Assembly (NCBI GenBank): GCA_022703505.1
Contig: JAKLDN010000001.1
Location: forward strand, 283,389 to 347,388
DNA: 64,000 nt
Source: Spirochaetota bacterium
GTDB lineage: Bacteria > Spirochaetota > Spirochaetia > Treponematales > UBA12059
Direction of reading: 5' to 3'
Shown here in pieces: positions 11,366-57,292 of this stretch; within the stretch, counting starts at the first letter, position 1, and every line of letters starts with the position of its first letter. Made by a program: the position numbers and the translations under genes. A model generated the notes under the pieces. That model saw only the letters and a program-made list of their open reading frames with translations. It searched no databases and was not told the DNA's origin.

Positions 11366-12202
11366 ATGACCGCAAACCGCGACCGAGTCGCCTCGGCCCT
11401 CGTCCCCGGATCCCCCCACGGCCACGGACGCCCGATCGCCGTCCGCTTCGAGGGGGTGTCTTTCGCGTACGGCTCCGACCCTATCCTGGAGGACGTCTCC
11501 TTCCATATCCACGAGGGCGAGTTCGCGGCCCTGATCGGGCCGAACGGCTCAGGGAAGACGACCATCCTCCGTCTCCTCCTGGGCCTGGCCGCCCCCGCCT
11601 CGGGGCGCATCGAGGTCCTGGGGGCGCCTCCCCACACCGCCCTGGAATCCCTGGGCTACGTGCCCCAGAACGCCGCCTTCGACCCCGCCTTCCCCATCTC
11701 CGTGGCCGAGGTGGTGCGCATGGGTTGCCTTCGGGGCGGCAGCAGCCGCTACTCCCGGGAGGACCTGCGCGCCGCGGACGCCGCCCTGGAGCAGGCGGAC
11801 GTGGCGGAACTGCGGGACCGTCCCTATTCCGCCCTGTCCGGGGGACAGAGGCGCCGGGTCCTCGTGGCTCGCGCCCTTGCCGCGAACCCCCGACTCCTGG
11901 TCCTGGACGAGCCCACGGCCAACATGGACGCCGAGAGCGAGACCCGGCTCTTCCGGGCCCTGGGCGAGCTCCGGGGCCGGACCACGGTCCTCGTGGTCAC
12001 CCACGACACCCTCTTCGTGTCGGACCTGACGGACGCAGTACTCTGCGTCGGGGACCGGGACGGGCGGCCCGGATCCGTGGTGCGCCACGCCTCCATCCCG
12101 GTGGCCCGGGGCCTGGCCCCGGGGGTCTTCGGCGGGGGGGCCCGGCAGGTCCTCCACGACACGGAGATCCCTCCCGAAGCCTGCTGCGGGGAGGGGGACT
12201 AA
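11366..12202 (+). CDS. znuC: Zinc ABC transporter, ATP-binding protein ZnuC
   Basis: 278 residues. Walker A GPNGSGKTT, Q-loop VPQNAAF, signature LSGGQRRR, Walker B LLVLDEP and switch VVTHD are all present in order. The protein has a C-terminal extension of about 40 residues after the ATPase core (RGLAPGVFGGG and onward) of the sort seen in metal-type ABC ATPases. It energises zinc import through ZnuB; the stop is two bases before the znuB start. Its neighbours fix the metal assignment. Confidence 0.92.
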   Translation: MTANRDRVASALVPGSPHGHGRPIAVRFEGVSFAYGSDPILEDVSFHIHEGEFAALIGPNGSGKTTILRLLLGLAAPASGRIEVLGAPPHTALESLGYVPQNAAFDPAFPISVAEVVRMGCLRGGSSRYSREDLRAADAALEQADVAELRDRPYSALSGGQRRRVLVARALAANPRLLVLDEPTANMDAESETRLFRALGELRGRTTVLVVTHDTLFVSDLTDAVLCVGDRDGRPGSVVRHASIPVARGLAPGVFGGGARQVLHDTEIPPEACCGEGD

Positions 12203-12204
12203 AG

Positions 12205-13080
12205 ATGAGCTTCCTGGACGCCCTCCTGGACCCCGCCCTGCCCTTCGTACGGAACGCCTTCCTGGCGGGGATCCTGTCCTCGGTCCTCTTCGGGGTACTC
12301 GGTTCCGTGGTCACGGTCAAGCGGATCGCGGGGCTGGCGGGGGCCATCTCCCACGCCGTCCTGGGCGGCATCGGCTTGGCCCTGTTCCTCTCCGCCCGGG
12401 GGCTGGCGCCGGGCCTCCCCCCGATCGCGGGAGCCCTGGCCTTCGCGGTCCTGTCCGCGGCCCTGATCGGCGTCGTATCCCTCAAGGCCAAGCAGAGGGA
12501 GGACACGGTCATCAACGCCATCTGGGCGGTGGGCATGAGCGTCGGGGTCCTGTTCATCGCCAAGACCCCGGGCTACGCCGACCCCATGAGCTACCTCTTC
12601 GGGAACATCCTCCTGATCTCCGGCCGGGACCTGGTCCTGATGGCCGTCCTTTCCGCCCTGGTCGTGGCCGGGGCCTGGCGCTTCTACCCCCAGATCGAGG
12701 CATCCGCCTTCGACGAGGAGTTCGCCCGGACCCGGGGGGTCCGCACGGACGCGGTCTTCCTGGCCGTCCTGGCCGTCGTGGCGGTCTCGGTGGTGCTCCT
12801 CCAGACCTTCGTGGGCATCGTCATGGTCATCGCCATGCTCACCCTGCCCGCCGGAACCGCGGGGTTCGCGGCCCGGAATCTCCGGGGGATGATGGTCCTG
12901 GCGTCCCTGTTGTCCGCGGTCTTTTCGGTGGGCGGCCTGGCCCTGTCCTGGGAGACCGACCTGCCCTCCGGAGCCGTCGTCGTGGTCCTGTCGGGAGCCG
13001 TCTTTCTGGGGGCCTCGGGAATCCGGATGCTGGTCACCCGTACATCCCGGCCGAAGGCGGAGCGTCCGGACGGGAAATAA
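12205..13080 (+). CDS. znuB: Zinc ABC transporter, permease ZnuB
   Basis: 291 residues with about eight hydrophobic segments and the ABC-3 family pattern, including VTVKRIAGLAGAISHAVLGG near the N-terminus, the metal-path GISHA-like motif in variant form (AISHAVLG), and TLPAGTAG near residue 215. It starts two bases after the znuC stop. It forms the membrane channel of the ZnuABC importer. It is the last gene of the operon; no T-tract terminator follows. Confidence 0.93.
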   Translation: MSFLDALLDPALPFVRNAFLAGILSSVLFGVLGSVVTVKRIAGLAGAISHAVLGGIGLALFLSARGLAPGLPPIAGALAFAVLSAALIGVVSLKAKQREDTVINAIWAVGMSVGVLFIAKTPGYADPMSYLFGNILLISGRDLVLMAVLSALVVAGAWRFYPQIEASAFDEEFARTRGVRTDAVFLAVLAVVAVSVVLLQTFVGIVMVIAMLTLPAGTAGFAARNLRGMMVLASLLSAVFSVGGLALSWETDLPSGAVVVVLSGAVFLGASGIRMLVTRTSRPKAERPDGK

Positions 13081-13162
13081 TTTCCCACCGGGGTGGAAAA
13101 ACTTCCCGGAACAATCGTACGAAATACTAAAAAAGCGCTTGATCACGCCAATTTCTCAGGAT

Positions 13163-13304
13163 AATCAGAACAGGATGATCATGATTTCATATAGATTAAC
13201 ATGATTCTTATTCTCTCTCATGTTTATATTTTTATTCCATTTCTATAAATATTTAGATTCTTAATCTTGTTAATCCTGTACATCATGAAAATCCTGTTCT
13301 GATT
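13163..13304. repeat. AT-rich inverted-repeat island in the znuB/13.4-kb intergenic region
   Basis: A sharply AT-rich block within GC-rich DNA. The ends are a perfect 14-bp inverted repeat, AATCAGAACAGGAT (13163-13176) against ATCCTGTTCTGATT (13291-13304), extending imperfectly inwards for about 40 bp (TCATGAT, GATTAACA-type words). There is no coding potential and no transposase. The whole znuB-to-next-gene gap (13081-13412) is otherwise unremarkable apart from the sigma-54 promoter. It resembles a MITE-like or AATCCTGTT/ATCATG-type dispersed repeat, or an upstream activator region. Confidence 0.7.
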
Positions 13305-13321
13305 TTTTCAAAAAATTCGAC

Positions 13322-13338
13322 TTGGCACGGCGATTGCA
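13322..13338 (+). promoter_or_regulatory. Consensus sigma-54 (RpoN) promoter
   Basis: The sequence TTGGCACGGCGATTGCA matches YTGGCACGRNNNTTGCW at every fixed position, with GG at 13324-13325 and GC at 13336-13337 exactly ten bases apart. Transcription should begin near 13350, giving a leader of about 60 nt with two stem-loops (13347-13369 and 13368-13385) before the start codon. Confidence 0.8.
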
Positions 13339-13412
13339 ATATATAAGGTGTCGGAAGGAAACCGGCACCGATCCTTGAGGATCGGGACTGAGTGAACCAC
13401 AAGGAGTTCCAT

Positions 13413-13880
13413 ATGAAGCGCGCAATCATCGTAGTCCTGGCCGTCGCCGTCGCGGCCTCCGCCGTGTCCGCCCAGGGATGGGCCCCGGGCTTCCGCGGCC
13501 CCGGCCCCGGCGCCTACGCCGCCCCCGCGGCCCCCGCCGAGACCGTAAAGATCGAAGGCAAGCTCGCCCTGGTCAACGCCCACCCCGCGGTGGTCGTGAA
13601 GGACAAGACCTACTACGTGGGCATCCCCGGCCGGCTCTTCGGTTTCGTGGACGGCCTCAAGGAAGGCGCCCAGGTCAAGCTCGAGGGGTACGAGCAGCCC
13701 CTGCCGTACGCGACGAACGTCGCGATGTTCCACGTCGTCAAGTTGACCGTCGGCGGCCGGGAGATCGACCTCTCCCAGTCCTTCGGCTACGGCCGCGGGA
13801 TGATGGGCGCCTACGGCCCGGCCGGCGACTACGGCCCCATGGGCCGGGGCATGATGCCCGGCGGGCGCGGCCGCTGGTAA
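13413..13880 (+). CDS. Small secreted protein of unknown function under sigma-54 control
   Basis: 155 residues beginning MKRAIIVV. The start is chosen because AAGGAG lies six bases upstream; an in-frame GTG at 13392 lacks this. A signal peptide is cleaved after AVSA. The mature part has an Ala/Pro/Gly-rich linker, then a compact beta-rich segment (KIEGKLALVNAHPAVVVKDK, YYVGIP, LKEGAQVKLEGYE) suggestive of an OB-like or SH3-like fold, then a Gly/Met/Tyr-rich tail (GYGRGMMGAYGPAG, GRGMMPGGRGRW). The tail could bind metal or another polymer; this is a guess. It is a single-gene transcription unit bounded by a sigma-54 promoter and a strong terminator. Confidence 0.8.
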   Translation: MKRAIIVVLAVAVAASAVSAQGWAPGFRGPGPGAYAAPAAPAETVKIEGKLALVNAHPAVVVKDKTYYVGIPGRLFGFVDGLKEGAQVKLEGYEQPLPYATNVAMFHVVKLTVGGREIDLSQSFGYGRGMMGAYGPAGDYGPMGRGMMPGGRGRW

Positions 13881-13918
13881 GCCGCTCCGGCGTCCCCGAC
13901 GACGCCGAACGAAGGTTC

Positions 13919-13954
13919 GACCCCGGCCGGGATCCCCGGCCGGGGTCCTTTTTT
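13919..13954 (+). terminator. Rho-independent terminator of the small secreted protein gene
   Basis: Twelve-base-pair GC stem (13919-13930 with 13936-13947), a 5-nt loop, then C and six T residues. It ends the sigma-54 transcript 39 bp after the stop. Confidence 0.9.
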
Positions 13955-13981
13955 GCCCGGGCCCGCCGTACCGAGGACAAG

Positions 13982-14009
13982 AAAAAAGCCGCCTTAAAAG
14001 GCGGCTTTT
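13982..14009. terminator. Bidirectional terminator between the 13.4-kb gene and rpmB
   Basis: Stem AGCCGCCTT/AAGGCGGCT flanked by an A-tract on the left and a T-tract on the right, so it works on both strands. It is the natural terminator for rpmB on the minus strand. Confidence 0.85.
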
Positions 14010-14028
14010 CACGCGGTCCGAGGCTCGA

Positions 14029-14220
14029 TCAGACGTACTTTACGATCTTGCCGGCCTTCAGACAGCGGGTGCAGACCTTGACCGTCAGGACGGTGCCCTC
14101 GATCAGCGTCCGCACCTGGACGAGGTTGGGTTTCCAGACCCGGTTGGTCCTGTTCTTGGCGTGGGACACGTTGTGTCCGAAGGTGGTGCCCTTCCCGCAG
14201 ATATCGCATCGTCTAGCCAT
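14029..14220 (-). CDS. rpmB: 50S ribosomal protein L28
   Basis: 63 residues, start [10 protein letters not shown] with GGAG upstream. The longer in-frame extension to 14397 is repeat DNA. It carries the L28 signature ([22 protein letters not shown], given here in part) and the zinc-ribbon form with paired cysteines (CDIC near the N-terminus and CTRC near the C-terminus). It is part of the large ribosomal subunit. It stands alone, without rpmG. A well-formed promoter lies just upstream. Confidence 0.96.
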
Positions 14221-14255
14221 ATCGGTCTTCTCCGGTTGTGCGAATTGGTTCGCGT

Positions 14256-14284
14256 AGTATAGCGATGAGGGCGGGGAGTGTAAA
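14256..14284 (-). promoter_or_regulatory. rpmB promoter, TTTACA-17-TATACT
   Basis: On the minus strand TTTACA (14279-14284) and TATACT (14256-14261) are separated by 17 bp. The predicted start is about 30 nt before the rpmB ATG. The -35 box is only 8 bp from the heptamer array that begins at 14293. Confidence 0.75.
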
Positions 14285-14292
14285 GTAGGTCC

Positions 14293-14418
14293 GTGGACGG
14301 TGGTCGGTGGACAGTGATCGGAAATGGCAGAAGACTGCGGAAACACACCCCGCCTTGGCGGGATTTCTGACCGAACCATCGTGTCGCTTCCGTCCACTGT
14401 TCACCGTCCACCGTTCAC
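14293..14418. repeat. Inverted pair of heptamer arrays between rpmB and ffh
   Basis: Left arm: four 7-bp units GTGGACG, GTGGTCG, GTGGACA, GTGATCG (14293-14320). Right arm: four units CGTCCAC, TGTTCAC, CGTCCAC, CGTTCAC (14391-14418), the reverse complement type. The arms are separated by about 70 bp containing GGAAATGGCAGAAG next to the left arm and a CCCGCC/GGCGGG hairpin. The right arm runs into the 3-prime end of ffh and encodes its last residues (SVNGGR). The layout suggests a long stem-loop. Confidence 0.85.
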
Positions 14419-15744
14419 CGACATCTTCGCCCACGCCTGGGCTTCCCGGCCCCGGCCCCGGGCCATCTTCTTCATCATGGTCCGGGTCTTCTCGAACTTC
14501 TTGAGGAGCCGGGCCACCTCCGCCACGGAGGTCCCGGAGCCCCGGGCGATCCGGGAGCGACGGGACGGCCCGATGATCAGATAGTTGGCCCGTTCCTTCC
14601 GAGTCATGGAGGTCAGGATGGCTTCCTCCCGCCGGAGCTCTCCCTCGTCGATCTGATCCTCCGAAATCTGGCCCGCGGCCCCGGGGATCATGTCCAGGAC
14701 CCCCTTCAGGGAGCCCATCTTCTTCATGCGCCGGAGCTGGTCCAGGTAGTCCTCCAGGGTGAGCCCCTCCTCGGACATCTTACGCTGGAGCTCCTCGGCC
14801 TCCCGGGCGTCGAACTGCTCCTGGGCCTTCTCCACCAGGGAGACGATGTCGCCCATGCCCAGGATTCGGCCGGCGATCCGGTCCGGATGGAAGGGCTCCA
14901 GGCCGTCGGGACGCTCGGAGACGCCGATGAACTTGACGGCCTTCCCGGTCACGCTCTTCAGGGACAGGGCCGCCCCGCCCCGGGCGTCGGAATCGAACTT
15001 GGAGAGTATGACGCCGGACACGCCCACCTTCTCGTCGAAGACCTTGGCGATGTCCACCGCGGCCTGGCCCGTCATGGCGTCCGCCACCAGGAGGGCCTCG
15101 TCGGGCTTGACGGCGTCCCGGATCCGGACCAGCTGGTCCATCATCGCCTCGTCGATCTCCAGGCGGCCCGCGGTATCCACGATCAGGGTGTCGAAGAGCC
15201 CCTTTTTCGCTCGATCCAGGGCCGCACGCGCCACCTTCACGGGGTCCTTGGCGCCGTCTTCCTTGTAGACCTCGACGCCGATCTGCGATCCCAGGACCGA
15301 GAGCTGTTCCACCGCGGCGGGGCGCACCAGGTCGCAGGCGGCCAGGAGGACCTTTCGTCCCTTGCCCTTGAGATGATGGGCCAGCTTGGCCGCAGTCGTG
15401 GTCTTTCCGGAGCCCTGGAGGCCCAGGAGGAGGATTACCGAGACGACGTCGGGGCCCCGGAGCTGGAGTTCCTGGCGGGTGTCCCCCAGGAGGGCGACCA
15501 TCTTGTCGTGGACGATCTTGACGAACTGCTGGCCCGGGGAGACCGCGCGGAGGACCTTCTCGCCCTTGGCTTCCTCGATGGTGGAATTGACGAAGCGGCG
15601 GACCACCCGAAGGTTGACGTCCGCCTCCAGGAGGGCCAGCTTGATCTGCTCGACCGCCTCCTCGATGTTCTTTTCGCTGATGGACGACTTGCCGCCGATG
15701 GTGCGGAGGACGTCCCCGAATTTCTGGGTGAGCCGTTCGAGCAT
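14401..15744 (-). CDS. ffh: Signal recognition particle GTPase Ffh
   Basis: 447 residues. N-domain helices are followed by the G domain (P-loop LGLQGSGKTT at 108-117, DTAGR, TKFD-like SKFD) and the methionine-rich M domain (MKKMGSLKGVLDMIPG, SRRSRIARGSG). It binds 4.5S RNA and signal sequences and delivers ribosomes to FtsY. The length is normal for the family. The final residues SVNGGR are encoded by the heptamer repeat array, so the natural C-terminus appears to have been extended or replaced by the repeat. No SRP RNA gene was seen nearby. Confidence 0.97.
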   Translation of the reverse strand: MLERLTQKFGDVLRTIGGKSSISEKNIEEAVEQIKLALLEADVNLRVVRRFVNSTIEEAKGEKVLRAVSPGQQFVKIVHDKMVALLGDTRQELQLRGPDVVSVILLLGLQGSGKTTTAAKLAHHLKGKGRKVLLAACDLVRPAAVEQLSVLGSQIGVEVYKEDGAKDPVKVARAALDRAKKGLFDTLIVDTAGRLEIDEAMMDQLVRIRDAVKPDEALLVADAMTGQAAVDIAKVFDEKVGVSGVILSKFDSDARGGAALSLKSVTGKAVKFIGVSERPDGLEPFHPDRIAGRILGMGDIVSLVEKAQEQFDAREAEELQRKMSEEGLTLEDYLDQLRRMKKMGSLKGVLDMIPGAAGQISEDQIDEGELRREEAILTSMTRKERANYLIIGPSRRSRIARGSGTSVAEVARLLKKFEKTRTMMKKMARGRGREAQAWAKMSVNGGR

Positions 15745-15822
15745 GGATTCCTCGCGGAAAGGGTATTGCCGGCGCGACGGCCGCGGCGGATGCGAGTATG
15801 TCCCGTCCCGGGCGGGCGCGTC

Positions 15823-15968
15823 TAGGAGCCTGTCGGATTTGTGGACTTTTTACGCCAGTAGGCGTAAAAAGTCCCGATTATCGGGCTCCTTTGGGAGTTT
15901 GCGAGGTAGGAAAATCGCAAGTATGCGATTTTCCTTTGGTTTTCGTGGGCGGGCCCGACAAACTCCTA
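15823..15968. repeat. 146-bp two-module palindromic element
   Basis: The ends are inverted (TAGGAGCCTGTCGG at the left, CCGACAAACTCCTA at the right). Inside are two modules. Module 1 (15824-15890) is AGGAGCC...GGCTCCT around a perfect 13-bp hairpin (15844-15856 with 15861-15873). Module 2 (15894-15966) is GGAGTTTG...CAAACTCC around a perfect 11-bp hairpin (15909-15919 with 15924-15934). Both inner hairpins have the same AGTA loop. It has no coding capacity. It lies between the ffh start and the HD-domain gene. A related TATCGGGCTCCT word occurs near position 66. Confidence 0.8.
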
Positions 15969-15988
15969 GCGCCCGGAGTGACCCGGGA

Positions 15989-16555
15989 TCACAAGGTTCC
16001 TTTAAGGCCCACCGCCTCCGAGGCGTCCCGGAGGGCCAGGATGGTCTCGCCGATGAGCTCGTCCAGGGAGAGGCCGAGCATCGCGGCTCCCTTCTCGATC
16101 ACGGACCGGTCCACCTTGGCGGCGAAGGCCGCGGCGCCCCACTTCTTCCGGACGCTCTTCACCTCCATGTCCAGGACGCTCCGGGAGGGCCGGACGAAGG
16201 CGCAGGCGGCGATGAAGCCCGTGAGCTCGTCCACGGCGTACAGGACCTTCTCCATGTCCGATTTCGGCTCCACGTCGGTGCAAAGGCCCCAGCCGTGGCT
16301 CTCCACGGCCCGGATGAAGTCCTCCGGGAGGCCCGCCCCGGCCAGGAGGGTCCGGGCATGCTTCAGGTGCTCCTCGGGCCAGCGCTCGTAGTCGATGTCG
16401 TGCAGGAGTCCCACCAGGCCCCACCAGTCCGGGTCCTGCCCGTACCGGACCGCGAACCGCCGGAGGGCCGCCTCCACGGAAAGGGCGTGCCGGAACAGGG
16501 ATTCGTCCTGATTGTGGGTCCTCCAGAGCCGGATGGCTTCGTCGCGGTTCAGCAT
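15989..16555 (-). CDS. HD-domain phosphohydrolase-like protein
   Basis: 188 residues. MLNRDEA start with a GGAGGAG Shine-Dalgarno sequence. The HD signature is intact: His23 (FRHALSVE), HD at 52-53 (LLHDIDYERWPEEH) and further His/Asp residues (AVDELTGFI). The family hydrolyses phosphate monoesters or diesters, mostly of nucleotides; this compact type, with HDIDYE and a downstream SHG, is widespread as a predicted hydrolase with no fixed substrate. It is transcribed in the same direction as ffh but from its own start, with the palindromic element between them. Confidence 0.85.
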   Translation of the reverse strand: MLNRDEAIRLWRTHNQDESLFRHALSVEAALRRFAVRYGQDPDWWGLVGLLHDIDYERWPEEHLKHARTLLAGAGLPEDFIRAVESHGWGLCTDVEPKSDMEKVLYAVDELTGFIAACAFVRPSRSVLDMEVKSVRKKWGAAAFAAKVDRSVIEKGAAMLGLSLDELIGETILALRDASEAVGLKGTL

Positions 16556-16626
16556 ATCTCCTCCGGGCCCCAGTGTACGATGCCCGGGTCCCGGGCGCAA
16601 GGGCGCCGGGCTCCCGCGGGCGGGGC

Positions 16627-16654
16627 TTGACGATCTCCGAAATCTCCATAAAAT
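16627..16654 (+). promoter_or_regulatory. Promoter of the lytic transglycosylase gene, TTGACG-16-TAAAAT
   Basis: TTGACG at 16627-16632 and TAAAAT at 16649-16654 with a 16-bp spacer, giving a leader of about 110 nt. It lies in the 216-bp gap between divergent genes. Confidence 0.65.
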
Positions 16655-16771
16655 GGGGACCCGTCGCGCGGGCCTCCGGGCCCCGATTCCTCCGGCCCCC
16701 CGGCCGGCCCTATTTCGAAATGCAGCGGGTCCCCTCGGGCCCGATTCCAAATCGTCAGGAGCATCGATCGC

Positions 16772-17512
16772 ATGCCCGTTCCCACTTCTCGAACCCTGTT
16801 TCGCAGTTTGGCGGTCCTGGCCGCGGCGTTGGCCGCCGCTTCCCTCACGGTCGTCGTATCGTCCTGCATGTCCTCCGTGACCGCCGTGGAACCGGAAGCC
16901 TACGTCCCCGAGGAGTTCCGTAAGTTCTCCTCCTACGACGAGACCGAGTACGTCCAGGCCTTCCGGAGCCACGCCCCCGAGGATTTCATCGCCGCGGGCT
17001 ACGGGAACCCCCTGTACCGGGAATCGGTCCTGGCCTTCTTCTCCAGCATCACCAAGTCCACCGAGATCGCCCAGGCCATCCTGGACAACGCCGTCGAGTA
17101 CTCGGTCCCCGTCTCCCTGGCCTTCGCCCTGGCCTTCGAGGAGAGCCAGTTCCACCCCCGGGCGATCAACCGCAACGCCGAGAGCGTGGACCGAGGACTC
17201 TTCCAGCTTAATTCCAAGTCCTTCCCGAACATGACCATCGAGCAGTTCTACGACCCCGTCCTGAACGCGAAGAAGGGGATCGCCCATCTGGCCTACTGCC
17301 TGGATGAGGGCGGGAACGAAGTGGCGGCCCTGGCCATCTACAACGCCGGGTACGGCCGGGTATCCAAGGGCGGCACGCCCCGGAAAACCCTCGATTACAT
17401 CTCCCGGATCACCAAGTACGCCTCGAATTTGGAGGCCCTCTTCGAGGCCCAGGTGCTGGCCCGGAGAATCGCGGCGGCGAAGGACGGGACGCGGGGGACG
17501 AAGGTGGAATGA
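16772..17512 (+). CDS. Lytic murein transglycosylase, SLT-type lipoprotein
   Basis: 246 residues. The signal sequence has a lipobox-like VVSSC, with Cys32 as probable lipidation site. The SLT domain spans about 105-240: catalytic Glu124 in FEESQFHPRAIN, then RGLFQLNSKSF and AALAIYNAGYGRV. It cleaves peptidoglycan glycan strands with anhydro-muramic acid formation, at the inner face of the envelope. The gene end (KVE then stop) runs straight into an octamer repeat array. It is convergent with lplA. Confidence 0.9.
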   Translation: MPVPTSRTLFRSLAVLAAALAAASLTVVVSSCMSSVTAVEPEAYVPEEFRKFSSYDETEYVQAFRSHAPEDFIAAGYGNPLYRESVLAFFSSITKSTEIAQAILDNAVEYSVPVSLAFALAFEESQFHPRAINRNAESVDRGLFQLNSKSFPNMTIEQFYDPVLNAKKGIAHLAYCLDEGGNEVAALAIYNAGYGRVSKGGTPRKTLDYISRITKYASNLEALFEAQVLARRIAAAKDGTRGTKVE

Positions 17513-17515
17513 AAG

Positions 17516-17635
17516 TAGGTGAATAGGTGAATAGGTGAATAAGTGAATGGGTGAATGGGTGAAGAGCCGGCCGATGGAGTTCATAGCTATTACCCCGACC
17601 GTCCTATTCACGATTCACTATTCACCCATTCACTT
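17516..17635. repeat. Inverted octamer arrays between the transglycosylase gene and lplA
   Basis: Left arm: six 8-bp units (TAGGTGAA three times, TAAGTGAA, TGGGTGAA twice; 17516-17563). Right arm: TTCAC-based units of 7-8 bp (TTCACGA, TTCACTA, TTCACCCA, TTCACTT; 17607-17635). The arms are complementary and enclose about 43 bp. The right arm contains the stop codon of lplA. Confidence 0.85.
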
Positions 17636-18391
17636 CCTTCTCCCTGTCCAGGCCTCGGTGCCGTACTTCTCCCGTGCAATACGGCGGCCCTCCTCGAGCT
17701 CCTCCGGGGAGGGCTGCGCGGGGTCCAGGACGACGTCCAGGGCGGCGGCGAACCCCGCGGCGAAGGCGGCGGCCGCCTCGGGAAGGCCCACGCTCCGGCC
17801 GAGCTGGTGACGCAGGCTCGTGACCCTCTGCTTCACGTCCTCGATCAGCTTCCCCTTCATCTTCTCCGAGGGCACCTTGAGAAGGGCGAACATCCGGTCC
17901 ACGTCCACGTCCAGGAGGATGGTCCCGTGCTGGAGGATGCAGCCCCGCTTCCGGGTCTGGGCGTTTCCGGAGACCTTCCGTCCCCCCACGAGGACGTCGT
18001 TGATGGGCGCGAACTCCCCGGACAGGCCGAGCCGGGCCAAGCCTTCCACGACCCCCGCGCAGAGAACCCGGTAGGAGTCCAGGATGCCCGGCCGGGCCCG
18101 GGGATGGCTCTCGGGCAGGACGATGCTATAGGTCAGCTCCGCGTCGTGGAAGACCGCCCCGCCCCCGGTGATCCGCCGGACGACATCCACGCCCATCCGG
18201 GCGCAGGCCTCCCGGTCCACCTCCTCGTCCAGTCCCTGGAAGTATCCCAGGGTCACGGTGGGGGGATTCCATCCGTACAGGCGCAGGGTGGGAGGCTGGC
18301 GGCCCTCCGCCACGGCGCCCAGGATCGCCTCGTCCAGGCCCATGTTGAAGGCTCCCGGGGAGACCCCGGTTTCAAGCAGGCGGAAGGTCAT
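17630..18391 (-). CDS. lplA: Lipoate-protein ligase A, catalytic subunit
   Basis: 253 residues covering only the large catalytic domain. RRITGGGAVFHD (72-83) is the lipoate/biotin ligase signature, and NDVLVGGRKVSGNAQ holds the catalytic Lys139. It activates lipoate to lipoyl-AMP and transfers it to E2 or GcvH lysines. The C-terminal accessory domain is absent here and is encoded by the preceding, overlapping gene. It is the last gene of tetR-lipA-lplB-lplA. The start lies 20 bp inside the upstream gene. The stop codon falls inside the octamer repeat. Confidence 0.9.
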   Translation of the reverse strand: MTFRLLETGVSPGAFNMGLDEAILGAVAEGRQPPTLRLYGWNPPTVTLGYFQGLDEEVDREACARMGVDVVRRITGGGAVFHDAELTYSIVLPESHPRARPGILDSYRVLCAGVVEGLARLGLSGEFAPINDVLVGGRKVSGNAQTRKRGCILQHGTILLDVDVDRMFALLKVPSEKMKGKLIEDVKQRVTSLRHQLGRSVGLPEAAAAFAAGFAAALDVVLDPAQPSPEELEEGRRIAREKYGTEAWTGRRK

Positions 18392-18659
18392 GGAGCATCT
18401 CCTCGAAGACGTCGGCCGCCGCGTCCGCGGAGAGGCCGAAGAGTTCCACGCCCTCCCGGGCGAGGGCGGCGGAAAAGGCGCTCCGGAACTCCCCGACGGG
18501 GATATCTACCAGGCTCTCCTCCGCCCGGTCGAAGCCCTCCTCCGGGTGGGCGAAGAAGTCCCCCCGGACGGCGACGGACTTCAGGACGCCGTTCTCGACG
18601 TCCGCGGTCAGCTTGAGGAGCTTCCCGGCGGGGATCTTCACGATCCTGCGGAGGGTCAC
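18372..18659 (-). CDS. Lipoate-protein ligase accessory subunit (LplB-like C-terminal domain)
   Basis: 95 residues, GTG start. It resembles the C-terminal domain of bacterial LplA and the separate LplB subunit of Thermoplasma: an opening strand RIVKIPAGKLLKLTADVENG, then DFFAHPEEGFDRAEESL (each shown in part) and a C-terminal helix. In the archaeal enzyme this domain is required for lipoate activation. It overlaps the lipA stop by four bases (GTGA) and the lplA start by 20 bp, so the three products are probably made in balance. The separate reading frame and start argue against a simple frameshift of a fused gene. Confidence 0.85.
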   Translation of the reverse strand: MTLRRIVKIPAGKLLKLTADVENGVLKSVAVRGDFFAHPEEGFDRAEESLVDIPVGEFRSAFSAALAREGVELFGLSADAAADVFEEMLHDLPPA

Positions 18660-19507
18660 GACACCTCCTCGAAGGCCTGGCGGGCGTGGTAGCTGGTCCG
18701 GGCCAGGGGACCGGACACCACGGCGGAGAATCCCCGGGCACGGGCTTCCCGGGCGTACTCGGCGAAGGTCTCCGGGGTCACGTACTCCGCCACGGGAACC
18801 TGGGAGGGCGTCGGTCGGAGGTACTGGCCCAGGACGACGCTGCCGCAGCCGATCCGGCGCAGGTCGTCCAGGACTCCGAGCACCTCCTCCCGGGTCTCCC
18901 CGAGCCCCAGGAGCAGGCTGGACTTGACCACCTCGATCCCCGCGGCGGCGGCCCGTTCCAGGGTATGGAGGGAACCTTCGTAGGAGGCCCGGGCGTCCCG
19001 GACCCGCTGGAGCCGGGGCACGGTCTCTACGTTGTGGGCCACCGCGTCGGGGCCCGCGGCCAGGACGAGGTCGATCTCACCCTCCCGGAAGTCGGGCACC
19101 AGGACCTCCACCCGGACGCCCGGGTTGCCCGCCTTGATCGCCCGGACGCAGGCGGCGAAGTGTCCCGCACCCCGGTCCGGCAGGTCGTCCCGATCCACGC
19201 TGGTCAGGACCGCGTAGGTCAGGCGAAGTTCCGCGACGGCCTGGGCCAGTTGGCCCGGCTCGTCGGGGTTGACCGAATCCCCGGTCCGACCGGTCGCGAC
19301 GGCGCAGAACCGGCAGTTCCGGGTGCAGGTGTTCCCCAGGATCATGAAGGTCGCGGTCCCGCAGCCCCAGCACTCGGCCTTGTTCGGACAGCGGGCGGAA
19401 TCGCAGACCGTGTGGAGGCCCCGCCGGTCCAGGAGCCGGCTCATGTTCCTCCATTCGGGGCCCGAGGGGATGGGCACCCGGAGCCAGGCGGGCTTCGGGC
19501 CGGTCAC
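18656..19507 (-). CDS. lipA: Lipoyl synthase LipA
   Basis: 283 residues, GTG start overlapping the tetR stop by four bases. It carries both iron-sulphur cluster motifs: the auxiliary cluster CxxxxCxxxxxC (Cys35, Cys40, Cys46) and the radical SAM CTRNCRFC (Cys61, Cys65, Cys68). The C-terminal RTSYHA corresponds to the conserved RSSY serine motif that ligates the auxiliary cluster. It inserts two sulphur atoms into octanoyl groups. Its presence together with a lipoate ligase means both synthesis and scavenging, or ligation of octanoate, may occur. No lipB is visible in the window, so the ligase may supply the octanoylation step. Confidence 0.96.
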   Translation of the reverse strand: MTGPKPAWLRVPIPSGPEWRNMSRLLDRRGLHTVCDSARCPNKAECWGCGTATFMILGNTCTRNCRFCAVATGRTGDSVNPDEPGQLAQAVAELRLTYAVLTSVDRDDLPDRGAGHFAACVRAIKAGNPGVRVEVLVPDFREGEIDLVLAAGPDAVAHNVETVPRLQRVRDARASYEGSLHTLERAAAAGIEVVKSSLLLGLGETREEVLGVLDDLRRIGCGSVVLGQYLRPTPSQVPVAEYVTPETFAEYAREARARGFSAVVSGPLARTSYHARQAFEEVS

Positions 19508-20097
19508 CGTTTCATCCCCTCCACGACCAGGTGCCCCGAGTCGACCAAGGTACCCGCCTCGGACTTGCCCAGGATGACGATCCGGAAGATCGCCGCCTCG
19601 ATCAGGGAATAGAGGAGGTCCGTGGCGGCCCGGACGGGAACCTTCCGGAATTCCCCGGCCTGGATGCCGGCGATCAGGAGCGTGGACAGGATGTGCCGCA
19701 TGCGGATGGTCCGGCGCCGGACCCTCTCGTCCGGGTCTCCCCCGGAACGTCGCAGGTGGTCCAGGTAGCCGAAGATGACGGTCAGGAGCCGCTTCTCCTC
19801 GGCACAGCGGGCCAGGACCATGTCCAGGATGGCGGAGATCTTCTCCGCGTTGGAGAGGTCCTCCCGGGTCGCGAACTCCCGGACGTCCGCCTCCAACCCC
19901 ACGGTGAACTGCTTGATGCTGTAGGAAAAGATCTCGCGTTTGTTCTTGAAATAGAGGTACAGGATGGTACGGGTGATCCCGCAGCGCTCGGCGATCTTCC
20001 GGAAGGTGGTATCCTCGTATCCCTCGTCCGTGAAGACGTCCAAAGCGCGCTCCAGGATCTCCTTCTTGCGCTTCTCGTGCTCTACGACGATTGACAA
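19504..20097 (-). CDS. TetR-family repressor of the lipoate operon
   Basis: 197 residues. TTG start with AGGAGG eight bases upstream. The N-terminal helix-turn-helix is typical (ALDVFTDEGYEDTTFRKIAE, then GITRTILYLYFKNKREIF, about residues 18-60). The C-terminal helical ligand domain has no recognisable specificity. It is the first gene of an operon with lipA, lplB and lplA, all overlapping, so it probably regulates lipoate metabolism in response to a ligand such as a lipoyl or acyl compound. A dyad in its own promoter suggests autoregulation. Confidence 0.88.
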   Translation of the reverse strand: MSIVVEHEKRKKEILERALDVFTDEGYEDTTFRKIAERCGITRTILYLYFKNKREIFSYSIKQFTVGLEADVREFATREDLSNAEKISAILDMVLARCAEEKRLLTVIFGYLDHLRRSGGDPDERVRRRTIRMRHILSTLLIAGIQAGEFRKVPVRAATDLLYSLIEAAIFRIVILGKSEAGTLVDSGHLVVEGMKR

Positions 20098-20118
20098 ACC
20101 GGGGCCCTCCTGTCACGT

Positions 20119-20148
20119 ACTATATACCAAGGTATTCTCCTTTGATAA
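20119..20148 (-). promoter_or_regulatory. tetR-lip operon promoter
   Basis: On the minus strand TTATCA (20143-20148) and TATAGT (20119-20124) are spaced by 18 bp, about 20 nt before the TTG start of tetR. Confidence 0.55.
20124..20135. promoter_or_regulatory. Putative TetR operator ATACC-AA-GGTAT
   Basis: A dyad of two perfect 5-bp arms with a 2-bp centre, located inside the -35/-10 spacer of the tetR-lip promoter. This is the usual place for an autoregulatory TetR-family site. The assignment is positional inference. Confidence 0.5.
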
Positions 20149-20194
20149 GACGGCACCGGGAAAAAGGGGCCTGTCCGGCCCGGTTCCCCCGTCG

Positions 20195-20200
20195 TATACT
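20195..20200 (+). promoter_or_regulatory. -10 box TATACT, six bases before an ATG
   Basis: TATACT followed by CCCCCC and the ATG at 20207. There is no Shine-Dalgarno sequence and no convincing -35 box. The identical string TATACTCCCCCCATGG precedes birA. Transcription would start at or next to the initiation codon. Confidence 0.5.
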
Positions 20201-20206
20201 CCCCCC

Positions 20207-20938
20207 ATGGAACGATATCCCGAGATCGACGCCTTGCGCGGGTTCGCCCTGGTCTGCATGGCCGTCTACCATCTTGCCTACGACCTGGTGATCTTCGGCG
20301 TCGCGGGCCTGGCCTTCTGGGAGGGCTTCTGGTGGTGGTTCCCCCGGTGCATCGCGGCGGCCTTCGTGACCCTGGCCGGGCTCTCGATGGCCCTGCGGAA
20401 GGCCAGGACGGGCGCCGGTCTACGGCCCTTCCTGGCTCGGGGGCTGCGTCTGGCGGCCGTGGCCGCGGGCATCTCGGCGGTCACCTATCTCGCCCTGGGC
20501 CCCGGGACCTTCGTCTTCTTCGGGGTCATCCACCTGATAGCCTTCGCCACCCTTGTCTCGTACCCCCTGGCGGACCGGCCCGCGGCCGCCGCCGCCCTGG
20601 GCGCCGCCGTCCTGGCCGGGGGTCTGGCCCTGGGGTCCCGGAGGTTCCCGGGCCCGGCCCTGGCCTGGCTGGGGTTGCGCCCCGAGGGCTACCACCCCGC
20701 GGACTACCTCCCGGTCCTGCCGTGGTACGCCTGGTTCCTCTTCGGGATCGCCGTCGCCGCCCTCCTCTACCCCCGGGGCCGGCGCAGCTTCGAGCCGCCC
20801 CGAACATTCCTGGATGTGCCCCCGATCCGGGCTTTGGCCTGGCTCGGACGCCGATCCCTGGCGATCTACCTGATTCATCTGCCGGTGTTGTACGGGATCG
20901 TGTGGGGTATCACGAGGGCGGGGGTTGCGGGAAGGTAA
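20207..20938 (+). CDS. DUF1624 / heparan-alpha-glucosaminide acetyltransferase-like membrane protein
   Basis: 243 residues with about seven transmembrane segments. MERYPEIDALRGFALVCMAV and a following HL motif (YHLAYDLVIFG) match the acyltransferase family that includes YeiB-like and DUF1624 proteins, in which the RG and His residues form the active site. C-terminal RSLAIYLIHLPVLYG is also characteristic. It probably transfers an acyl group to an envelope glycan; the substrate is unknown. It is divergent from the tetR-lip operon and lacks a Shine-Dalgarno sequence. Confidence 0.82.
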   Translation: MERYPEIDALRGFALVCMAVYHLAYDLVIFGVAGLAFWEGFWWWFPRCIAAAFVTLAGLSMALRKARTGAGLRPFLARGLRLAAVAAGISAVTYLALGPGTFVFFGVIHLIAFATLVSYPLADRPAAAAALGAAVLAGGLALGSRRFPGPALAWLGLRPEGYHPADYLPVLPWYAWFLFGIAVAALLYPRGRRSFEPPRTFLDVPPIRALAWLGRRSLAIYLIHLPVLYGIVWGITRAGVAGR

Positions 20939-20955
20939 GGCACACCCAAAAACGC

Positions 20956-21068
20956 CGAAGCCCCCAAACGGGGGCTTCGTTGCCGCGCCTACTGATAATC
21001 GACGAAGCCCCCATTGGGGCTTCAGCGCCGCGCCTACTGTAAATCAACGAAGCCCGAAGGGCTTCGTT
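20956..21068. repeat. Three tandem AACGAAGCCC hairpin modules
   Basis: Hairpins at 20956-20979 (10-bp stem, AAAC loop), 21004-21023 (8-bp stem) and 21046-21068 (10-bp stem, GAA loop) all share GAAGCCC/GGGCTTC. The spacers are also repeated: CGCGCCTACTGATAATC and CGCGCCTACTGTAAATC. The period is about 45-48 bp. A fifth-strand relative lies at 44559-44580. It sits between the convergent acyltransferase and livF genes. Confidence 0.85.
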
Positions 21069-53962: not shown

Positions 53963-54463
53963 TCAGGGACGATACTCCAGCACCGCGGGCAGGGAAAGGT
54001 CCCCCGGGGACTTGGCCTGGGCCGCGAAGTAGGCTAGACGCGCCGCGAGGGCTTCCAGGAAGGCCGCCGGATTCGAAAGCGCCGCGGGTACCTCCGCCAG
54101 GATCCAGTAGGCGGAATCCCGGAGAGCGAAGGCCGTATCCGGCGCCTCCCGGGTCCCTACGGTCCGGGAATAGGCCCGGATCCGGGTTCCCGGGGGTGAC
54201 CGGAAGGGGATCTCCTCCCATTCCGGGGTCAGGAACAGCTCTTCCCGGACCACCCATACCCGGACCGGAGCGGCATCCAGGCGGTATTCCCCGTACAGGG
54301 CCGGGACGGCGTTGGCCGGCAGGTGGGGCACCCCGCGGACCTGCAGGGTGCCCCGGACCAGGATCGCCCGGGCCAGGGCGGTCTGGGCGGAGGCGGGCGG
54401 AGAGAGCCCCGCGGCGCACACGGCGGCCGCCAGGACCCAAACCGCCCACCGGACGTTATTCAA
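53963..54463 (-). CDS. Small secreted protein of unknown function downstream of glmS
   Basis: 166 residues. Probable TTG start overlapping the end of glmS by eight bases; no better start is available, as the next in-frame GTG would cut into the signal peptide. Signal peptide ends PPASAQ. The mature part is beta-rich early (ARAILVRGTLQVRG, VRVWVVREELF) and Ala-rich helical at the end. No family recognised. Co-transcription with glmS is likely. Confidence 0.6.
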   Translation of the reverse strand: MNNVRWAVWVLAAAVCAAGLSPPASAQTALARAILVRGTLQVRGVPHLPANAVPALYGEYRLDAAPVRVWVVREELFLTPEWEEIPFRSPPGTRIRAYSRTVGTREAPDTAFALRDSAYWILAEVPAALSNPAAFLEALAARLAYFAAQAKSPGDLSLPAVLEYRP

Positions 54464-56279
54464 CGGTCACGCTCTTGGCCAGGTTCCGAGGCTGGTCCAC
54501 GTCCCGGTTGAGCTCCAGGGCGCAGAAGTACGCGAAGAGCTGGAGGGGGGCGGACATCAGGAAGGGATAGAACCGTTCGTCGATCTTCGGCACCCCGATG
54601 AAGTCGTCCGCCAGCTCGCGGACATCCTCGTCCCCCTCGACCCCGAAGGCTATGACGGGGCCTCCCCGGGCCTTGATCTCCTTCATGTTGCTCAGGGTCT
54701 TCTCCCGGAGGAAGTCGTCGGGCACCAGGAAGACGCTGGGGGTCTCGGGGCTCACCAGGGCGATGGGGCCGTGCTTGATCTCCCCGGCTCCGTAGCCCTC
54801 CGCGTGGATATAGGAGATCTCCTTGAGCTTCAGGGCCCCCTCCAGGGCCAGGGGGTACATCAGGTTGCGCCCCAGGAAGAGGAAGTCCCGGGCCTTGGCG
54901 TATTTCTTGGCAATAGCCTGGATCTGGTCCCGAAGGGTCAGGGTCCGGGCCACCTTGTCCGGCACGGACCTGAGGGCTTCCATGAAGCGCCGGCCCTCGG
55001 TGGGGCTCATGTCGTGCATGCGGGCCAGGAGGAGGGTCAGGGTATAGAAGGCGGCCAGCTGGCTGGTGAAGGCCTTGGTGGAGGCCACGGCGATCTCGGG
55101 CCCCGAGTGGACGTAGACTCCCCCGTCGCTCTCCCGGGCTATGGTGGAGCCCACCACGTTGCAGATGCCCAGGACCGTGCCGCCCTTACGCCGCACCTCC
55201 CGCATGGCGTAGAGGGTGTCCGCGGTCTCCCCGGACTGGGAAACCGCCAGGAAGAGGGTGTTCGGCTCCACCACGGGATTGCGGTAGCGGATCTCGCTGG
55301 CCAGCTCCGCGGCGGCCGGTATCCGGGCCACGCTCTCCAGGAGGTAGGCCCCGACCAGGCCCGCGTGCCAGCTGGTTCCCGCGGCGATGATCTTGATGCG
55401 CTGCATCGAATGAAGCTGCTGGGGGGTGAGGTTCAGGCCTCCGAGCTTCCCGGTCGCGAACTCCGCGTCCAAGCGTCCGGACAGGGCCCGCCCGATGGAC
55501 TCGGGCTGCTCGAAGATCTCCTTCTCCATGTAGCAGGAGAACCCTTCCTTCTCGATCTCCCCGAGGTCCCAGTCCACGCTGTCGATGCGCTTGTCCACGG
55601 GCCGGTCGTCCAGGTCCGTGATGGTGAAACCGTCCGGGCGGATGTCCGCGACCTCACCGTCGTTCATGTAGACCACCCGCTTGGTGTGGGCGACCATCGC
55701 GGTGACGTCGCTGGCCAGGAGCATCTCCCCCTCGCCCACCCCGACCACGAGGGGGCTGCCCTTCCGGGCGCCCACGATGCGGCCGGGCTCGTCGGCGTGC
55801 ATCACGGCGATCCCGTAGGTTCCCTCCAGGCGCTGGACCGCGGCCTTGACCGCCTTTTCCAGGTCCCCTTCGTAGTATCGTGCGATGAGGTGGGCGATGA
55901 CCTCCGTATCCGTCTCGCTCAGGAAGACCGCGCCCTTGGCCTGGAGCTTTTCCTTGATTCCCTTGTAGTTCTCCACGATCCCGTTGTGCACCAGGACTAT
56001 CTTGCCGGTGGGATCCCGGTGGGGATGGGCGTTGGCGTCGGTGACGCCGCCGTGGGTGGCCCAGCGGGTGTGCCCGATGCCGCAAGTTCCCGGCAGGTCC
56101 GCGGGAACGATGGCCTTGAGCCGGGCGATCTTTCCGACGGTCTTTATCACCTTGAGATCCGACCCCGACTGCACCGCGATGCCCGCCGAATCATACCCCC
56201 TGTATTCCAGTCTCTTGAGCCCCTCCACCAGGACGGGGGCCGCCCGCCGGGGCCCCGTATATCCCACGATTCCGCACAT
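54456..56279 (-). CDS. glmS: Glutamine-fructose-6-phosphate aminotransferase GlmS
   Basis: 607 residues. Nucleophile Cys2 (MCGIVGYTG), then the glutaminase domain (VHNGIVENY, SETDTEVIAHL) and two SIS isomerase domains (SWHAGLVGAYLLE, SQSGETADTLYAMR, GPEIAVASTKAFTSQL, EIKHGPIALV). The C-terminal KSVTVE ends the usual synthase. It makes glucosamine-6-phosphate for the cell wall. A GGAG sequence precedes the start. No glmS ribozyme-like structure was recognised upstream. Confidence 0.97.
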   Translation of the reverse strand: MCGIVGYTGPRRAAPVLVEGLKRLEYRGYDSAGIAVQSGSDLKVIKTVGKIARLKAIVPADLPGTCGIGHTRWATHGGVTDANAHPHRDPTGKIVLVHNGIVENYKGIKEKLQAKGAVFLSETDTEVIAHLIARYYEGDLEKAVKAAVQRLEGTYGIAVMHADEPGRIVGARKGSPLVVGVGEGEMLLASDVTAMVAHTKRVVYMNDGEVADIRPDGFTITDLDDRPVDKRIDSVDWDLGEIEKEGFSCYMEKEIFEQPESIGRALSGRLDAEFATGKLGGLNLTPQQLHSMQRIKIIAAGTSWHAGLVGAYLLESVARIPAAAELASEIRYRNPVVEPNTLFLAVSQSGETADTLYAMREVRRKGGTVLGICNVVGSTIARESDGGVYVHSGPEIAVASTKAFTSQLAAFYTLTLLLARMHDMSPTEGRRFMEALRSVPDKVARTLTLRDQIQAIAKKYAKARDFLFLGRNLMYPLALEGALKLKEISYIHAEGYGAGEIKHGPIALVSPETPSVFLVPDDFLREKTLSNMKEIKARGGPVIAFGVEGDEDVRELADDFIGVPKIDERFYPFLMSAPLQLFAYFCALELNRDVDQPRNLAKSVTVE

Positions 56280-56417: not shown

Positions 56418-56515
56418 GTGAATAAGTGAATTGGTGAATAAGTGAATTGGGGGGATTGCATTCACCCATTCACCCATTCACCCATTCACCCATTCACCCA
56501 TTCACCCATTCACCC
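56418..56515. repeat. Inverted octamer arrays between glmS and birA
   Basis: Left arm: GTGAATAA, GTGAATTG, GTGAATAA, GTGAATTG (56418-56449). Right arm: seven identical ATTCACCC units (56460-56515). The arms are complementary in type and ten bases apart. The right array ends at the first base before the birA -10 box. Confidence 0.9.
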
Positions 56516-56521
56516 TATACT
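56493..56521 (+). promoter_or_regulatory. birA promoter formed by the octamer array
   Basis: TATACT at 56516-56521 with TTCACC, a unit of the array, at 56493-56498 exactly 17 bp upstream; ATG six bases after the -10 box. No Shine-Dalgarno sequence. Confidence 0.6.
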
Positions 56522-56527
56522 CCCCCC

Positions 56528-57292
56528 ATGGTTCCCATCCCCGTCCGCAACCCCTTTCCCGGCGCCGCCTGCTGGCTGATCCCGGAGACGGATTCCACCA
56601 TGGACGAAGCCCGTAGGCTGGCCGAGGCGGGCCGGCCCGAGGGCACGGTCATAGCCGCGGACAGGCAAACCGCCGGCCGGGGCCGGTTCCGGGACCGCGC
56701 CTGGGTCTCCGAGCCCGGCCGGGACCTCGCTTTTTCCCTCATGCTGCCGTCCGCCGCCTGCGGACTTCCGGGCCTGCCCCTGAGGGCCGGGCTGGCCCTG
56801 CACCGGGCAGTCGCGCAACTTGCGAAGGAGGCGGGGACCTCCCCGGCGCCGGAACTGGCCGTCAAATGGCCGAACGACCTCCTGGTCCGGGGGCGCAAGG
56901 CGGCGGGCATCCTCTGCGAGTCCTCCGGGGGGAGGTGCTGCCTGGGGATGGGCGTCAACTGCGGAACTCCGTCCGGCCGGGGATTCCGGACGGAGGCAAC
57001 CGGGCTCGCGGAGGAGCTGAAGGCGCCCGTGGACCGGTTCCGGGTCCTGGAACTCATCCTGGAACGCCTGGCCGAGGCCCTGGCGGAGGAAGGCTGGCGG
57101 GAAGAGGTTTCCCGAAGACTCTGGCTCCTGGACCGTCCCGCCCGGTTCCGCACGGGGTTGGCCGATCCCGGGGCGCCGGGGACGCGGATCCTGGAAGGGA
57201 TCGTGCGCGGAGTCGGCCCCTCCGGGGAGTTGATCCTGGAAACCGCGGAGGGCATCCGTGCCCTGGCCTCCGGGGAACTGTCCCGGGACTGA
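56528..57292 (+). CDS. birA: Biotin-[acetyl-CoA-carboxylase] ligase BirA, without repressor domain
   Basis: 254 residues. TDSTMDEAR, AGRGRFRDRAWVS (biotin and ATP binding GRGR loop) and KWPNDLLVRGRKAAGILCE (catalytic Lys) are the ligase core; the small C-terminal domain is present. No helix-turn-helix domain, so it is a group I enzyme. It attaches biotin to carboxylase carrier protein. The start is fixed by the leaderless promoter. Confidence 0.93.
   Translation: MVPIPVRNPFPGAACWLIPETDSTMDEARRLAEAGRPEGTVIAADRQTAGRGRFRDRAWVSEPGRDLAFSLMLPSAACGLPGLPLRAGLALHRAVAQLAKEAGTSPAPELAVKWPNDLLVRGRKAAGILCESSGGRCCLGMGVNCGTPSGRGFRTEATGLAEELKAPVDRFRVLELILERLAEALAEEGWREEVSRRLWLLDRPARFRTGLADPGAPGTRILEGIVRGVGPSGELILETAEGIRALASGELSRD

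Follow-up and report, generated by a model that had tools for sequence, protein, structure and literature searches.

The array of identical 8-bp units upstream of birA is most probably the right end of a short mobile-element copy that lacks a gene, from a class with PF05635 as its sole gene and inverted arrays of a short word as its ends (probability about 0.8). In the 64,000-nucleotide stretch of DNA that was analysed, termed the window, domain search assigned BPL_LplA_LipB and BPL_C domains to the product of birA (biotin protein ligase; 56528..57292, plus strand) and SIS and GATase domains to that of its divergent neighbour glmS (54456..56279, minus strand). The element comprises a left arm of four GTGAATnn units (56418..56447, plus strand; GTGAATAA GTGAATTG GTGAATAA GTGAAT; period 16 / 8 in Tandem Repeats Finder), a unique middle (56448..56459; TGGGGGGATTGC) and a right arm of seven perfect ATTCACCC units (56460..56515, plus strand; 100% matches, score of 114), which is inverted in relation to the left arm. 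The right arm is followed directly by TATACT (56516..56521, plus strand), the putative -10 box of birA, which is kept with its CCCCC-ATG context in two congeners, and birA has a leaderless-type start 6 nt past this box. A first-pass annotation of this DNA had described seven identical units ending at the TATACT box and a TTCACC placed 17 bp upstream of it; both were confirmed, the hexamer lying at 56493-56498. The window contains 10 copies of ATTCACCC, compared with 1.8 +/- 1.2 in shuffled sequences, where 10 was reached in 0 of 100. Folded as single-stranded RNA, the element is predicted to be more stable than 200 of 200 shuffles (z of -4.5). A search of a phage collection with the birA region returned no match. 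Elsewhere in the window, 20956-21055 consists of tandem 45-bp units, each with a GAAGCCCC...GGGGCTTC hairpin.

The first-pass annotation overlooked a genome-wide family of such arrays. The pattern GTGAATNNGTGAATNNGTGAAT, allowing at most one mismatch, occurs at 135 places in the 3.66-Mb genome, while the reversed pattern, used as a control, occurs at 1. Thirty fetched regions are built alike, with (GTGAAT + 1-2 nt)n, then some 10-80 bp of middle and then (ATTCAC + 1-2 nt)m. Inverted-array elements of the form (GTGAATnn)n - unique middle - (nnATTCAC)m occupy about 36 sites, two of them in the window, a lower bound derived from the listed places and the fetched stretches. All elements that were read have inverted terminal repeats (the arms) and lie between or beside protein genes, none of them in a 23S rRNA gene helix. 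The gene-less copies have middles that bear no relation to one another, and long middles are no more alike than shuffles. Among the 59 genomes of the relatives panel, the exact three-unit pattern is present in two, the home genome (G000) and its congener G001. The birA array is thus the right arm of a dispersed inverted-array element. Because the same arms are found at about 36 sites, including between convergent genes, the proposal of a device dedicated to birA is not supported.

The second GTGAAT-family element of the window (17516-17634) lies between convergent genes, and an element of a sister word family (GTGGAC / GTCCAC) is located at 14288..14420. Both are missing from a further congener, G002, whose empty sites are too diverged to establish a target-site duplication. 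The outer unit of element 17516-17634 provides the TGA stop codon of a minus-strand gene, and at the site of 14288..14420 G002 displays a different, hairpin-like stretch. The region 12000-20921 of the window is 98% identical to G001 contig C114, while the birA proteins of the two species are only 74% identical, making a recent exchange between them likely.

The sole PF05635 gene of the genome (23S_rRNA_IVP, an S23 four-helix bundle; C7:621644-621952) is bounded on both sides by GTGAAT arrays. Among 23 panel genomes of the home family, PF05635 was found in G000 and G001 only, the same two that carry the arrays. The gene-bearing element, 640 bp long, can be aligned with contig C4 of G001 (540 of 636 positions identical) exactly from the first GTGAAT to the last ATTCAC, and the C4 copy of the gene has an internal stop codon. 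The flanks of the C7 element match another place in G001, contig C104 (530 of 610 positions for the left flank), which holds a gene-bearing element of GTGGAC type. Since the alignment runs exactly from array to array while the flanks match elsewhere, the GTGAAT arrays are the ends of a gene-bearing unit that sits at different chromosomal places in the congeners. This unit has its GTGAAT ends in common with the gene-less copies of the same genome, and we infer that it is their autonomous partner.

The protein has a relative of known structure, 2GSC (E value of 4.9e-35). A domain search also gave a weak match of the PF05635 protein family to bAvd, a distant relative. PF05635 has no nuclease or transposase domain, no transposase domain was detected in the element, and a search for RVT_1 (reverse transcriptase) in the home genome gave no match. 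In the fragmented assembly of G002 no PF05635 gene was found, although GTCCAC arrays are present. A third PF05635 copy in G001 (L109; G001:C101:12119-12412) is associated with another word, ATGAAGG / CATCCTT.

Comparison of the birA site among the three species, based on one genome each, revealed that unit number is not constant, with seven right-arm units in G000, four in G001 and at least six in G002. The G001 site has an inverted element with GTGGAC/GTCCAC words, whose four right-arm units are followed by CC and TATACTCCCCCCATG, and the G002 site, at a contig end, has its GTCCAC units followed by CG and TATACTACCCCCATG. The -10 box with the leaderless-type start is kept in all three. At 15 of 15 further G000 sites examined, at least one congener has a GTGGAC-type element at the same position. 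Where G000 and G001 share a word, their copies are set apart by an integral number of units (16 and 8 bp for L052/L085, 8 bp for L057/L090), and turnover of units between congeners, in increments of 8 bp, is thus supported. At one and the same site, the middles of G001 and G002 are related (p of 0.0004 over seven sites; p of 0.16 in a both-orientation test with three usable sites). Middles of G000 are no closer to the same site in G001 than to other sites (p of 0.85, or 0.50 with both orientations), and for G000 and G002 the corresponding value was 0.93, with a weak signal in the second test (p of 0.04, four sites). Conversion in place with retained middles was rejected on these G000 values. 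The congener elements occupy the same sites with other words, and the G000 middles are unrelated to theirs, which indicates that the G000 elements were replaced or rewritten in place. Words and unit numbers thus turn over at fixed sites, while the arrays continue to adjoin the -10 box.

PF05635 genes of order-level relatives are mostly flanked by inverted arrays as well, built from other words (GTGGAC, GTGATTA, GTGAGGG, GTAGCAG and others). For a set spanning many phyla, archaea among them, 80 named PF05635 loci were retrieved and read, and 74 were given a score T for the best hexamer that the two 160-bp flanks have in common in inverted orientation. A score of T>=4 was reached by 48 of 74 loci, a count that misses arrays with degenerate words, compared with 2.9% of 869 shifted windows at the same loci. 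Mismatched flank pairs already reached this threshold in 18.9% of cases because GTG-type words recur, and the shifted windows are therefore the cleaner control. Inverted sharing (48) exceeded direct sharing (22), and the upstream word was G-rich at 43 loci and C-rich at 6. The words are 7-8 nt long and differ from locus to locus, with 50 different hexamers over 59 loci. About a third of the loci fall below the T threshold, and five loci (L101-L104 and L108) are without arrays by eye. Five cyanobacterial plasmid loci from an independent collection display the same array arrangement by eye; unit number is identical in two near-identical Trichormus plasmids. At their ends, these elements carry a 7-8 nt word in inverted arrays, with the G-rich word on the 5' side.

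Dispersed arrays carry the word of the genome's own PF05635 copy, as observed in two tested genomes outside the home genus. Over 13 genomes, GTGAGT arrays were present at 118 and 73 places in the two whose gene copy has GTGAGT and at 0-1 places in the 11 others; the reversed-pattern control is uninformative for this test, as the array itself satisfies the reversed pattern. At one of the five cyanobacterial plasmid loci, L254 (Anabaena sp. 90 plasmid pANA02), a four-helix-bundle gene with long GGTGACA/GGGAACA arrays has cas6 on one side and cas4 on the other, within a type I-D CRISPR locus. In an order-level relative (L094), a leucyl-tRNA synthetase gene apparently harbours a PF05635 element with word arrays, and the reading frame seems to stay open into the left array. 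A broader proposal is made tentatively, with slightly less than an even chance of being correct: minimal mobile elements with a single S23/Avd-like gene and word-array ends may be widespread in bacteria and archaea, their protein reading a 7-8 nt word and their arrays being rewritable in place, and they may be the source of many unexplained heptamer and octamer repeats.

The strongest alternative is that of the first-pass annotation, in which the units make up a -35 region of birA that is tunable or phase-variable and that the left arm blocks by cruciform formation. It is unlikely, although several observations favour it. TTCACN occurs 16-18 bp upstream of the box in 10 of 10 array-adjacent promoters of the home genome, cases that are not independent because the distance from array end to box is almost constant, and an 8-bp repeat has a roughly 3-in-8 chance of placing its hexamer in the 16-18 window. 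The genome has 14 TATACTnCCnCCATG boxes, and at eight of them a word array lies directly upstream (six of GTGAAT, one of GTCCAC and one of TCCTGACTCC), yet the same arrays also lie between convergent genes without promoters. Unit number does differ between species, at birA and at other loci. Against this alternative, 8-bp steps by geometry leave the spacing of the -35 to the -10 box as it was, and the hexamer is lost in the congeners with GTCCAC words. The unit-built box is itself weak, TTCACC agreeing with TTGACA at four of six positions and the orthologous GTCCAC words at about three of six, and boxes without arrays have no clear -35 either. At array-adjacent promoters the starts lie 6-8 nt past the -10 box, a distance that suits leaderless transcripts. 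The simplest reading is that the elements fill the short gap between the neighbouring gene and the -10 box, while a unit-built -35 box and phase variation at birA are possible. A third word family, GAGTCAGGA / TCCTGACTCC, adjoins another TATACTTCCCCCATG promoter of the home genome (L234; G000:C2:102231).

It is rather less likely still that a regulator binds the arrays and that selection amplified them, as proposed for the TAACTGA heptamers. Tandem words upstream of starts have been read in this manner in other bacteria (PMC4679880), and word arrays abut promoters at several genes. However, the words change at all examined congener sites while the promoters stay, many array sites have no promoter, and the arrays bound a gene-bearing unit at different places. 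Passive slippage repeats or an assembly artefact, with no mobile partner, are very improbable: perfect units are typical of replication slippage, and the G002 birA contig ends in such an array, but the inverted two-armed architecture, the word-matched gene and the sites kept in three assemblies argue against both. The least probable origin, in REP-type repeats mobilised by the genome's own RAYT (Y1) transposases, is contradicted by the five Y1_Tnp genes themselves, none of which is flanked by GTGAAT arrays. These five genes (L031-L035) instead have GGGGACAGAGCTC-type repeats nearby and represent a separate repeat system. A reverse-transcriptase (DGR-like) mechanism was rejected as the genome has no RVT_1, and ordinary MITE copying was rejected as the middles of the copies are unrelated.

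In the preferred reading, a PF05635-encoding element with gene-less relatives, the four-helix protein would recognise the word as DNA or RNA and, together with host enzymes, would maintain or spread the word arrays. Movement would have to borrow enzymes of the host, because the element has no transposase domain and the genome no RVT_1. Slippage or unequal exchange could then alter unit number and produce perfect tracts like that of seven units at birA, and the predicted hairpin of the birA element (z of -4.5) would suit a DNA or RNA stem-loop intermediate. As the middles of the gene-less copies are unrelated, unlike those of ordinary MITEs, the copies would not be simple duplicates of one source. 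The missing transposase and the unrelated middles weigh against this reading, as do the PF05635 loci below the T threshold or without arrays and the GTCCAC arrays of G002. The birA element would take up the space between glmS and birA as far as the -10 box, thus replacing the upstream promoter region, and its effect on birA transcription would probably be a by-product or a mild tuning rather than a dedicated switch.

To our knowledge, the S23 / 23S-IVP protein family is without known function, and the short tandem words of 7-8 nt described from several groups of bacteria lack a mechanism. If the two are connected, each acquires a role that can be tested, with the protein acting as a word-specific factor on the arrays as its ends, and dispersed words are predicted to match the resident gene. 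No description of a link between the PF05635 family and word arrays was found in the literature searched, the scope of which excluded most subscription journals and all preprints. The association of PF05635 genes with word-array ends points to a little-noticed class of mobile DNA, whose members can take over the region upstream of the -10 boxes of housekeeping genes such as birA.

Several known systems resemble parts of this arrangement. The STRR heptamers of cyanobacteria are tandem 7-nt words dispersed between genes, for which we know of no tie to a gene, while the cyanobacterial S23 genes described above are themselves flanked by words of the 7-nt type. Homology of PF05635 to Avd has been noted (PMC10053308); the likeness to Avd / bAvd of diversity-generating retroelements is weak at the protein level, and the home genome lacks a reverse transcriptase. 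PF05635 is also shown in a figure of associations with CRISPR adaptation (PMC10910872), and insertions like the one in the Anabaena cas locus might explain this association. MITEs, among them the minisatellite-bearing one of Porphyromonas gingivalis (PMC4596501), are likewise small gene-less elements with inverted ends, whereas the word-array ends described here change their word, the middles are unrelated and no transposase partner is known. The TAACTGA repeats of marine Beggiatoaceae, Cyanobacteria and Bacteroidetes, for which no link to a gene family was proposed, also occur as numerous arrays between genes, with a single short word in each genome and often immediately before start codons (PMC4679880), but those arrays are direct and the present ones inverted. 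S23p ORFs are known from intervening sequences (IVS) of 23S rRNA, which have been called selfish elements, and the solved relative 2GSC has been described as a pentameric ring (PMC4990558). In Coxiella burnetii, the IVS with an S23p ORF is accompanied by GACAGAT heptamers whose number varies between strains (PMC4990558). Such an IVS shares with the elements described here the PF05635 ORF (in this genome the C7 copy), the inverted-repeat ends and, in Coxiella, the tandem heptamers beside the ORF. An IVS stem is excised from the transcript by RNase III, and for the birA element a stem is predicted. In contrast, the present elements reside in intergenic DNA rather than rRNA, their very ends consist of arrays of 7-8 nt words, and the copy at birA is gene-less, one of many dispersed, word-matched copies.
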